Shown here: positions 27,603 through 32,595 of the stretch, one piece after another
How the letters are laid out: the number at the start of each line of letters is the position of its first letter
Position numbering within the stretch: position 1 is the stretch's first letter
Assembly: GCA_030490835.1 (NCBI GenBank)
Contig: CM059971.1
Location: 127,504,564 to 127,568,563 of the forward strand
Length of the DNA: 64,000 nt
Reading direction: 5' to 3'
Origin: Annona cherimola
Lineage: Eukaryota; Streptophyta; Magnoliopsida; Magnoliales; Annonaceae
The notes under the pieces: model-generated
Told to the model about the DNA's origin: nothing
Seen by the model: the letters and a program-made list of their open reading frames with translations, nothing else
Database searches by the model: none
Translations under genes and position numbers: made by a program

Positions 27603-29102
27603 ATATTTATTTTACATAATTGATACTTATGGCGTCCAATGCATAATAATACTAAACAAATATTAGAGTTTTATAGTTGAATAAATAATAGTTGATACAG
27701 TAAATGAAGTGAATTTTGTAAATAAATAGATTTTCTATCATTCATCGTAGTGCGCAAAATGGACAGGGCTTCACCAACATGGTCGTTGCTATTGCAGTGA
27801 ACACTTTTGTTGTAATCGGTGAAAAAAATATTACAATAAGATCAATTGCAACAAAAAATGTTCGTTGCACATTCATTGCAACATTTCAGAACGAACATCT
27901 GTTTCGACACAATTGATCATGTATTAGCAATGAAAAATTACGTTCCAATAAGCTTGAAATTGCAACAAATTTTCTTGTTGCAGATTCCTTCCCATTAGCA
28001 ACAACAAATCACGTTCCAATTAGCCTGAAATTCATTGCAATTTTGCAACAAACTAACCGTGGTTAGTACATTACCATGACTCAATTTGCAACGAAAAATT
28101 CATTGCAATTACTTCACATTAACAACTAAAATTTTCGTTGCAACTTGCAGATTGACCATGATCAAATACATTACCAATGAATACATTCATTGCAATAAAT
28201 CATAAATTTCATTGCAATTACCTTTTTAATTTATTGAAAATAAATAATATTTTAACTATTTCCTTTTAAGAACCATATTATAATTATATTTAATTTAGCT
28301 TTTATGCCTACAACAACGCACTTATATGGCAAATAACTTGTTAACAAAAAAGATAAACAAAGCACATACATATACCTTAAAATATTACAATGCTCTTCAA
28401 ATAATACATAACTTATCTTCAATTTAAATTGTGCAACCTAAATCAATAGAAAAAAATACAAGCTAGAAATGATTTCTGCATAAAACTCTTTGAAAAACCC
28501 ATTACACAATATAATAAGCTCAATTTTCTAAATATCTCATAGTTACACATAAAGCTTCAAATATAGATATTCCCTTCTTATACTTCATAGTCTTCCAAGC
28601 AGCAATTGATGAAAATAATGAAATGACACCCTGAAATACCATAGCCAAGTTCAAAAATCATGGAAAGAATAAAAAGTTTACTAATTAAGAAACAATGAAA
28701 GTTGAAATGAAAACAGTTAGTAGTAAAAATACCAAACTTGAAAATACTCATGCTCGGATATAACAACACATTATCAAAACTTCACACATTTTTAGAAATT
28801 AACGGATTTATTTCAATTGAACAACTTTGCATTTAATAGAAGACTTCTAATAGATGATAACTTGAATTCAAGTTGAACACAACAAACCAAATGATAGAAA
28901 GGAGACATGCAACCCTGATTCAGTTGATAAAACCAATAAGCCTACAAAATGAATTGGACTACCTTAATTGATCAAAACATGGTTCTTCCACAATATTAGA
29001 AAAAAGATCTACAAACTCTCATCCTTGGCCATTCTAGCCCAATATCCTGCTAAATTTGAAAGTAAATCTGCAATCAAGGGGTGAAATTGGAGATTCAATT
29101 AC

Positions 29103-29312
29103 CTCGTAGACAAAGTTTACTTTAGATTCATTTTTCCAAAAAACATTTCTAACAAGGCCGGCATTAGGAGGGAGATAGGTAATTCGTTCTTGATGCCTCA
29201 TTTCATTTGGCAATGACTTTGCAGCCAGTATTGTCCTTAAGGAGTTAGATATACCAAAAACTTCATCCCTTGATAAATTCCCATGGTAAAGGCCCTCAAT
29301 ATACAAATCCAT
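29103..29312 (-). pseudogene. nardilysin-like (M16 peptidase) exon fragment
   Basis: The frame reads LYIEGLYHGNLSRDEVFGIS, then LPNEMRHQERITYLPPNAGL and VRNVFWKNESKVNFVYE, ending in a GTAATT donor. This matches the C-terminal half of plant nardilysin-like insulinases (YIEGL..GNLS...RHEE...L-P-x-G-x-x-LVRDV-x-x-KN). The zinc site HxxEH of the family is not in this part. It is a fragment within the CACTA-like element. Confidence 0.75.
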
Positions 29313-29399
29313 TGTTCAACGCAATCTCTTCTAATAAACAAGTAAAACCGCATCAATTGGATAAGAGGGGAAAAGAATTCTGAAAAAATTAATAGTAGC

Positions 29400-29690
29400 A
29401 ATCTTGCATCATATAAAACTCAAGGTTATTGTATCTATAACTAGCAGCCCGATAGCCATCATTCCATACTCCATAGTAGGTGAAATAGAGCAATGCGAAC
29501 AACATGGAGAAGAGGTACCAGAAGAACTCAACTGCTGTCCGATCAAACCAGATCATGACATAGACAATGAGCCCATATACAAGAGTCTGAACCAAAATAT
29601 ACAAAATCTTAATTGCCGCTTGAGGAAAGGGTATAGAAAAATAAGTCGACAAGATGGCAACTTGAATTGATAGAAATTATTGGGAAAAGT
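29400..29690 (-). pseudogene. PDR-type ABCG transporter fragment
   Basis: The minus frame reads PQAAIKILYILVQTLVYGLI, then VYVMIWFDRTAVEFFWYLF and LLYFTYYG. This is the second-half transmembrane segment of plant full-size ABCG (pleiotropic drug resistance) transporters. After TYYG the frame breaks. A 7-bp tandem duplication (TATGGAG followed by TATGGA) precedes ATGATGGCTATCGGGCTG, which would continue the family sequence as MMAIGL. No nucleotide-binding domain is present. Confidence 0.8.
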
Positions 29691-30134
29691 TGTCCGGCTT
29701 TGGTGCAAACCTGAGTCAAGGCTTAATATTAAATGCAGAATCAGAAGAAACTAGAAGGATATTATTGAAGAGAAATAATAACCAACCAAGAAATTCTGAA
29801 GGGGAACATTTTTCTTTTTTTATGACCTGTGCCATTTGGAAGTTCATCTATGAAATGACCTGTTGGACCAATGTCACCTTACCACCATAGCATCACCATG
29901 TCAAACAACAACAAAATTTCAATCAATAAATACCATCAAACATGAAACCTTAAAAGAAAATCTAAATATCTAGATTTTCAAATTCTTCACCTAGAAAACA
30001 ACTAGGGTTCTAACAGCTCCAACATTTCACACGGTTAAGTTCCAACAATTTCTGTAGAGATATCTTCCACAAGAAACAAAAAGAAATTCACAAGAAATTT
30101 ATTGTGTACAGACCACTTATCTAAAAGCCCATAC

Positions 30135-30239
30135 CTGGAGCCTATTTGTCAAAATTAAGTTTGGATACATTGTAGCCATATCCAAATGATCAATAAGAGG
30201 ACATTCTTCCTGTGTTGGTTCATTTTGCAACATAATCCT
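30135..30239 (-). pseudogene. DNA polymerase epsilon catalytic subunit, exon fragment 2 (motif A)
   Basis: This 35-codon exon is bounded by a TTGTAG acceptor and a GTATGG donor. It reads QEECPLIDHLDMATMYPNLI and then LTNRLQ, the next exon of the same gene. The polymerase motif A (LD-x-A-x-MYPN) is recognisable; the family has Tyr-His where this copy has Asp-His, and Val where this has Met. The intron of about 120 bp between the two fragments is kept, so the fragment was copied from genomic DNA. Confidence 0.85.
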
Positions 30240-30359
30240 CTACAAAATGTAGAAATGTATATTGTCAACACTCAGATCGACAAGAGATTGTTTGAAATAG
30301 CTAAATTCAGGACTCGATTATCATTACGAATAGGAAAAATAAATCACACCTTTTCCTTG

Positions 30360-30416
30360 ATAGTGTTCTTCACAGCTTCATAGTTGGACACCAAATCTAC
30401 ATCCATTTTTCCCTCC
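30360..30416 (-). pseudogene. DNA polymerase epsilon catalytic subunit, exon fragment 1
   Basis: The minus frame reads VEGKMDVDLVSNYEAVKNTI-KEK and then hits a GTGTGA donor. This matches the segment of the plant epsilon catalytic subunit just before its polymerase motif A (VEGKM...VSNYDEVKNAIKEK pattern). It lies inside the CACTA-like element and is not part of a complete gene. Confidence 0.75.
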
Positions 30417-30599
30417 ACTCTTCGTGCCGATTTTCCCCAAAAATAGAAAAAAGTATGCACTCATACGGGAAACCCAAAATTTCTTCCATCAAATGCGCTT
30501 TTGAACATTGATCTTCACATGCGCGAATCAACCAAATCAAGTAAAATCTAAAACAGCAAAACAGAGAAAAACACTAAAACAAATGGGGAAAATGAAGCC

Positions 30600-31080
30600 T
30601 TGGCAATGGGATTCATGTCATTCCATATCCCCGAAGAAAGCTGGAGGTGCATTGTTCGGGCCAACGAAGATGAGAAAAAGGTGTATAGAGTGCAGAACAA
30701 CGACGGTTGTGCGATCCGGTAACTAATGGCTTCTGTGTGGTGTCTGTCGGGACTTGGAGAAGCGGAAGGATGATGCCGTGTAGGACAGCGAGAATCGCGC
30801 CATCAACGGCTAGCCAAGAAGATACTAAGACGGTCAAATGGTGACGAAAATCGAAATGGGGGTGGCAGCTAGGGTAAGTCCTGAGCACGAAATGCACGCC
30901 GGAGAGGGAGTGAAACGAATCGCCCGGGCGGGAGGATTTTGGGTGCCAGTGACGGAGGGCGGGGGCAAAAATGGACAGCGAGAATGGAGGCCAGGGTGGT
31001 GGTAGAGGCAGGATAGCGGGAGCGCTCACTGTGGATTTGGGGGGAAAAGCAAAGGTAAAACTAGGGTCCAGAAGCTTCAA
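30600..31080. other. GC-rich segment of unknown origin inside the CACTA-like element
   Basis: The sharp rise in GC content against AT-rich surroundings suggests a further captured host piece (promoter or 5' exon). An open minus frame spans 30613-31080 but resembles no protein I know, and its Pro/Ser/His-rich composition argues against a real domain. Confidence 0.4.
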
Positions 31081-32595
31081 AGGACTCGCGCATTTTCAGC
31101 ATATGTAATAGTAATACAAGACATGCATATTATTTTTAGAAATTATCCCTTCCGCATTAATGCAATGGTGTATATTGCTAATCTATAATAGTATTTTCTC
31201 CTAACAATTAATCTATGATTAATTAATTTAAGATGATTTAATATACTTTTCCATTGTTCTCTTCAGCAATTAATTGCAATTTATGATAATTTAATTACAA
31301 TTAATTAATTTAAGATTAATTAATATACTTTTCCATTGTTCTATTCAGTAATATCATATTAATTTATCACTGTTTAGTTACTAATTACCTTTTTTCTTGC
31401 TTTATAAGAGGGAGTTGATATTAATTACCTCATCATATATAATATCCAAATATGTAACTCTTTATTTTAAAAATTGTATAAAAAAACATTATCATATATC
31501 ATTTATTTAGAACCACTTGCCTATATTAAATCATTTACATTTAATTATTTATTAAACTCACTAATTAATTTGATATTTTTAATTAATTATAATACCTTCC
31601 AAAGTCTTGAAATTTATTCCAATAAAATAAATTGAAAATTCTCTTGACTTTTATTTTACTTTTCTGCATACATTTTAGGCCATTAATAATTATTTAAAAT
31701 TCATGACCAAATGGCTTGAAATGTTTCATTAAATTAAAAATATCATGTTCATGGTTTAACTTCATTTTCTTTTAGCTTAACTTATTTAAAAATAGCATAC
31801 ATATATGTAATATTTGCATATTATAATAGGATTCAAACTTTTGCCTACCTTAATATCCTTTGATGGCCACATATATGCTTTAAATAGTTTAATCTTGCTA
31901 AACTTATTTAATACTCTTCTCCGTTAAACTTATTTAAAGCAAACCAAAGGCACAAAATTAGATAAGCTAAATTAAAAAATTAATGAACAAAGATGAAACA
32001 AAACCATCTATAATTTCTTTTGATGCTTGCTTCAACTCAACTATCTATAATTTTGGGGAATGGAATGATTGATTTAGGCAGGATGATTGGTTAGTTATAT
32101 TTTTCGGATTTTTTTTAGAAGCTAACCTAGCAAACCAAGTCCAACCAGCTTTAGAAATAATTATATGATAAAAATCATATATTATATTTATCATAAATTT
32201 CAAAGTCTATTAAATCATCATCATTCACTTTAAATAAGTTCATCTAACTCTAGTTAATTAATTTAAACCCCATTAATCTATTAAATATTACATGAATTTG
32301 ATCAATACAATAGAAACAGGCTCTTATCTCGTTGCAATTGTACCCATCAATTGCAACGAAACATTGTTTGTTGCAATGTTTTGGTATATAATTCTTTCCA
32401 AATTTTGCAACGAAATTATTGGTTCGTTGCAATTGTTTACAATAGCAACCAATTTTGCAACAAAACATGTTTCGTTGCAATTTATAGGAATCAGCCAGTA
32501 GGAACGAATCTCCTCTTCGTTGCAATTGTTCACACTAATTGCAACGAAGAAATTGTTCGTTGCAAGTTTTTATTGCAATTGGTCTTCCTGTAGCG

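Follow-up and report, generated by a model that had tools for sequence, protein, structure and literature searches.

A decayed gene-carrying CACTA element in Annona cherimola and the probable stepwise assembly of its cargo

How do pieces of several unrelated host genes come to lie side by side, all in one orientation, between the two arms of what looks like a single transposable element? The question is raised by a 64-kb stretch of the Annona cherimola genome (assembly GCA_030490835.1, 792 Mb in 1370 contigs; contig CM059971.1, here C1, positions 127504564-127568563), referred to below as the window. An earlier note on the window had placed a CACTA-like element at 27758..32595 and had proposed that it took up exon pieces of three host genes in three consecutive captures. 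Our analysis indicates that the element is very probably a decayed copy of a non-autonomous, gene-carrying CACTA (En/Spm) transposon of the Pack-CACTA kind, and that its cargo, which comprises at least six pieces, was probably joined on stepwise.

The genome was queried with the cargo of the element (28500-31100), which gave 61 matches. Scores were obtained for 40 of 56 candidates, and the follow-up set consists of 16 copy loci and 10 putative parent loci, the remaining matches being left aside. Flanking sequence is shared within three pairs of copies (L009/L010, L012/L013 and L019/L020), and each pair is therefore counted as one insertion.

Ends, arms and copies of the element

The clearest view of the family comes from the copy at L009, which is complete: it measures 6902 bp, has the ends CACAACAAGAAAAC and CACTACAACAGAAC, and is flanked on either side by AAT. 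Its termini, CACAACAAG... on the left and, reading inward from the right, CACTACAAC..., are CACTA-type terminal inverted repeats (TIRs), and the AAT/AAT pair is a 3-bp target-site duplication (TSD), found here in the sole fetched copy that has both ends. Because L009 combines such ends with such a duplication, the family can be classed as a non-autonomous, gene-carrying CACTA. The left start reads CACTACAAGAA in six of the 16 copies (L010, L014 and L019-L022) and CACAACAAGAA in L009.

The window copy retains less. Its right end lies at 32595, where the terminal GTAGCG aligns with the right end of L009, which bears out the near-CACTA right terminus noticed earlier; this right terminus alone is common to at least 12 other places in the genome. 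The left boundary at 27758, in contrast, has to be given up, as homology to the family begins at 27786-27790 against nine of the 16 copies and further in against the others. In the family alignment the outermost left bases resemble a repeat internal to the left arm and are not the family end CACTACAAG; the left terminus of the window copy has thus been rewritten. A left end at 27829 was also considered, as 22 of 30 bases there match the right terminus and suggested a left TIR; the family alignment places this position internally. The triplets flanking the window copy differ (CTT, or AAA, versus GCA), so that it has no 3-bp duplication. The proposed check of the ends through other copies therefore succeeds in L009 and fails in the window, and the mismatch counts against the window as a complete copy, not against the family.

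Repeats of the TTCGTTGCAA type, counted with at most one mismatch, occur 26 times in the window against 6.18 expected, a number that none of 100 shuffles reached. The arms hold 21 of the 26 (11 on the left, 10 on the right), on both strands, so the window displays a CACTA trait, subterminal repeats of 10-20 bp that lie near each end and point either way, in line with the repeats described earlier on both sides. The arms belong to one element rather than to two, since the same arms recur together with the cargo at three other loci (L009, L010 and L011), the first of them complete with CACTA ends and duplication, and the single-element capture model holds to this extent. The same cargo is found at the window, at L009/L010 and at L011, and these three unlinked sites have no flanks in common, which indicates movement as a unit. 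The window element is non-autonomous; a six-frame Pfam scan of 27829-32595 found neither a transposase nor any host domain that rose above noise. Its parts, with strand where one is assigned, are as follows.

27772..28230, no strand: left arm with subterminal repeats; family homology from 27786-27790, terminal bases rewritten
28231..28961, no strand: family core, whole or partial in the window and nearly all 16 copies; no source assigned
28962..29316, minus: fragment of a nardilysin-like M16 peptidase; two exons and what is left of an intron (35 nt), interrupted by a stop and a frameshift
29314..29448, minus (strand from the reading frames of the source locus): intron piece of the host gene at C3:86812, 89% identity
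29446..29630, minus (strand from protein match): exon piece of a PDR-type ABCG transporter, with a 7-nt insertion that causes a frameshift
29725..30018, minus (strand from protein match): piece of a kelch exon from a BSU1/BSL-like phosphatase gene
30022..30422, minus (strand from protein match): POLE fragment, matching locus C7:12184109, of exon, intron, exon, intron; exons open
30512..30698, minus (strand from reading frames): 5' coding exon plus the beginning of the intron, from the gene at C1:96006, with a paralogue at C7:59160
30699..31047, no strand: G+C-rich block, matched in six-gene copies only; source sought, none found
31435..31920, no strand: dispersed repeat within the right half, at more than 20 other genome places among the matches listed
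32325..32595, no strand: right arm with subterminal repeats and the CACTA-type terminus GTAGCG

Cargo pieces, donors and orientation

The three host fragments of the earlier note are all real, and they resemble POLE, ABCG and nardilysin-type genes as described, but their count was too low. The best PDB match of the POLE exon at 30239-30134 is DNA polymerase epsilon (E 3e-08), and the piece is 86% identical over 401 bp to locus C7:12184109; this match spans exons and introns, in agreement with the reading of two exons with the intron between them. The PDR piece matches Pfam ABC2_membrane (E 9.2e-07) and four PDR loci, on C2 and C6, at 76-79% identity, so that the true donor is not fixed among them. 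The nardilysin-like piece matches an M16 peptidase of Platanthera (E 3.1e-11). Among the newly recognized pieces, the kelch exon is 77% identical to a gene at C2:97708 whose protein matches BSU1 (E 2.5e-50), and 30512-30698 is 83% identical to the 5' exon at C1:96006 and 79% to C7:59160. Taken together, four of the six fragments have a matching locus, as expected of Pack-CACTA donors, the PDR piece has a gene family, and for the nardilysin piece a DNA search of the same genome returned element copies and short repeats only. The search for parent genes thus delivered the POLE locus and the PDR family, and not the nardilysin parent. In the PDB no true match was obtained for the nardilysin or the PDR fragment, nor for the POLE parent read through in one frame.

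We take the gene at C3:86812 to be SPC24-like, the kelch donor to be the plant BSL1, and the M16 fragment to be nardilysin rather than another M16 peptidase. Tool support for these names, and for the identification of the L033 gene, consists of the BSU1 match, the M16 matches and a PAN_4 match below the cut-off.

Locus C7:71577 (L031) contains, at 4107-6123, a copy of the kelch-phosphatase gene with a short PDR piece within its intron; the kelch and PDR pieces may therefore have been taken together, with L031 as a possible joint donor. The G+C-rich block at 30699-31047, for which the genome search found no source, is possibly a captured promoter or 5' untranslated region. In other subfamilies too, frames that look G+C-rich lie to the right of the cargo, in L020 at 5978-6313 and in L012 at 5175-5700 (both in element orientation); BLAST reported no match between these stretches and 30699-31047.

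The single orientation remarked on for three fragments extends to all six, which are sense on the minus strand; for four of them the strand follows from a protein match, and for the C3:86812 and C1:96006 pieces from reading frames only. A sister copy, L024, retains a DUF4216 relic (E 4.6e-22) that lies on the minus strand, the same strand as the cargo, with DNA homologues in L019-L021. DUF4216 is an ORF1 domain of CACTA elements (PMC8978399). An unusual trait of the present family is that all cargo is sense to the transposase relic.

Order of acquisition and route of capture

The nardilysin piece is at least partly present in all 16 fetched copies, and the remaining cargo differs among them. 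The six-gene block is carried by the window, by L009, by its segmental duplicate L010, whose PDR and POLE pieces have suffered deletions, and by L011, which is truncated on the left. Seven copies (L012, L013, L014, L015, L016, L018 and L022) share further sequence past the nardilysin exons, and in L012 this sequence matches Pfam Peptidase_M16_M (E 3.6e-15), which makes it more of the same gene. Five others (L019, L020, L021, L023 and L024) have the nardilysin exon end only, up to 29027-29031, followed by different sequence, which in L024 is the part that encodes DUF4216. L017, a broken relative, was assigned to our group B by its partial nardilysin, and group B is not monophyletic.

A midpoint-rooted tree of the shared core was built with 16 of 17 rows, L015 (74 aligned bases) being left out. 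The six-gene copies form one clade (support 99/97), as do the copies of the L019-L024 type that break off at 29027-29031 (94/95); the copies with longer nardilysin do not. The simplest reading is that nardilysin would have been acquired first and the six-gene block later. Three consecutive captures are therefore too few and too simple a description, given part of the nardilysin piece in every fetched copy, the rest in one clade, and PDR and kelch perhaps taken jointly. The family appears old, as most copies differ from the window by about 10-20%. Relatives that show the order of acquisition so clearly are unusual.

The joins within the block are close. Between POLE and kelch 1-3 nt are unassigned, the PDR and C3:86812 pieces overlap by 3 nt, and about 5 nt of filler connect the C3:86812 piece to the nardilysin intron, at the place where L012 continues in nardilysin. 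The other two joins are longer stretches without a source, roughly 70 bases from kelch to PDR and roughly 90 ahead of POLE. Introns are retained in the POLE and nardilysin pieces, which implies that the captured material was DNA or unspliced RNA. On this evidence the joins are more reminiscent of end joining or template switching than of a fusion between neighbouring elements.

We therefore picture the following course. Terminal and subterminal repeats would let the element be moved by a transposase made elsewhere, as in the rest of the superfamily. Nardilysin would have been present first and in longer form, and would then have been shortened in the six-gene clade, where at least five more pieces were presumably joined on before the element spread. 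The pieces may have come in while element copies were being repaired, through end joining or template switching, a step suggested by the three of five joins with 1-5 loose or shared bases and the two with about 70-90 sourceless bases. Sense pieces might be the ones retained because they would least disturb the RNA of the element.

Several points weigh against this account. With regard to the element, the window copy alone fails the TSD and left-TIR tests, both ends could be compared in L009 alone, a Pfam scan of L019 found no transposase domain (Transposase_21 included), and the DUF4216 evidence comes from one copy. With regard to the order, the tree is rooted at its midpoint, and the 16 copies were selected by likeness to 28500-31100, so that family members without nardilysin would be missed. 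With regard to the route, there are few joins and these are old, the DNA search did not recover the nardilysin parent, and the PDR donor is not fixed among its family members. The bias in orientation, six of six pieces or five of five events if kelch and PDR came jointly, would arise by chance about once in 16 to once in 32.

The alternative that survives best is neighbour fusion (the Catoni/Gisby model), in which two close elements are mobilised as one together with the DNA between them. This has been proposed for Pack-CACTA (PMC8903248, PMC13317346) and could account for one unbroken stretch of captured DNA, as with nardilysin. As an explanation of the whole cargo it is unlikely, because the donors or donor families located for five pieces lie at unlinked places (C7:12184, C3:86812, C2:97708, C1:96006 or C7:59160, and the PDR loci on C2 and C6), and these pieces are short (135-401 bp) and show no element ends between them, with none of the 26 repeat matches falling inside the cargo.

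Helitrons have a 5' TC and a 3' CTRR with a hairpin, and insert between A and T. If such an element, or another gene-capturing element, were nested in the CACTA, the CACTA itself need have taken only nardilysin. The restriction of the block past the nardilysin join to one clade would fit, and several gene pieces gathered stepwise in related copies are common in maize Helitrons (PMC3288121). The nested element is nevertheless quite improbable: by eye no TC...CTRR end was seen at the nardilysin join in L009-L011, an inspection that did not cover the other end or include a systematic scan, and no fetched copy has the CACTA arms around a simply empty site, different sequence being found there instead. 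Moreover, the CACTA right half is present in all four block copies and the left end or its rewritten form in three (L011 is shortened), and the subterminal repeats, the ends and the L009 TSD have the character of a CACTA rather than a Helitron.

With stepwise capture by the CACTA itself as the preferred reading, the family is of the same kind as Tgm-Express1, Tpn1 and Pack-CACTA. Tgm-Express1, a soybean CACTA, is similar in size (5.7 kb) and holds exon and intron sequence from five host genes that are unrelated to one another (PMC1947982); the present family differs in host and repeats, has six pieces, is old and decayed, is known from sequence alone, and has relatives that give the order of acquisition. 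The Tpn1 family of Ipomoea nil has conserved ends, insides replaced by host sequence, and non-autonomous, sometimes transcribed members (PMC5105172), but it is active, whereas the present family looks old. Pack-CACTA and other Pack-TYPE elements of Arabidopsis, rice and maize are non-autonomous TIR elements with coding DNA, in maize from several loci per element (PMC8903248); the neighbour-fusion model developed for them fits poorly with the short, unlinked and closely joined pieces found here. A 2026 review allows that an undiscovered mechanism may exist for the capture of unlinked gene fragments by DNA transposons (PMC13317346). One shared arm with varied cargo, several identifiable donors and close joins make the capture question testable by sequence comparison alone.

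A further idea, which we consider doubtful, is that the family collects cassettes directionally, with pieces added serially at the inner side of the fixed left arm and always sense to the transposase unit. Capture would then perhaps proceed by copying from a transcribed or nascent-RNA-paired template during gap repair. The accessible parts of the literature searched state no orientation rule for CACTA cargo. If true, directional collection would be a capture route separate from neighbour fusion.

Coding decay and other features of the window

The insertion in the PDR piece measures 7 nt in the window and L011, where it shifts the frame, and 6 nt in L009; L010 has lost the site in a deletion. 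At the 5' splice site of POLE the parent has GTGAGT and each of the four copies GTGTGA, with the GT retained. In L011 the POLE exons have acquired an insertion and an extra base; those of the window remain open. The nardilysin exon is open in the window and, apart from its start, in L015, and its divergence is about even over codon positions 1, 2 and 3 (0.228, 0.219 and 0.183; 11 rows, some partly alignable). These frame breaks, which differ from copy to copy, and the even divergence give no sign of maintained protein function, and the idea that a conserved protein, chimeric or otherwise, is being kept is not supported. That selection maintains a working chimeric gene or a locus of regulatory RNA is thus the least probable alternative, even though all pieces are sense, the upstream G+C-rich block could be a promoter, the POLE exons and first nardilysin exon of the window are open, and the pieces of Tgm-Express1 are spliced into chimeric transcripts (PMC1947982).

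A chimeric transcript, as suggested in the earlier note, is possible. Antisense action by the cargo is not favoured by this layout, in which the fragments have the same sense as the transposase relic. With regard to small RNAs, the cargo shares 31 of 431 exact 21-mers with the POLE donor (181 of 431 with at most two mismatches), 10 of 151 with the C3:86812 gene, 6 of 281 with the C1:96006 gene, 0-1 of 231 with the PDR genes, none of 321 with the kelch gene and 6 of 461 with L031. An effect on POLE is conceivable, though this comparison lends it no support.

Adjoining the element on the left, at 27340-27600, is a dispersed short repeat with the ends GGGC.../...ACACCC that is also found in several fetched loci. 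A MITE-like inverted-repeat family is present at 226-634, 16045-16263, 26834-27205, 33406-33661 and 41098-41504, and in fetched loci as well. Two G+C-rich direct repeats of 218 nt, 86% alike, occupy 15417-15916 and have long open frames on both strands. Elsewhere in the window, open frames match zf-RVT, a reverse-transcriptase associated zinc finger (5440-5973, minus strand, E 6.8e-15), trehalose-phosphatase (53753-54022, plus strand, E 4.9e-14) and AP2 (62026-62823, plus strand, E 2.5e-13).

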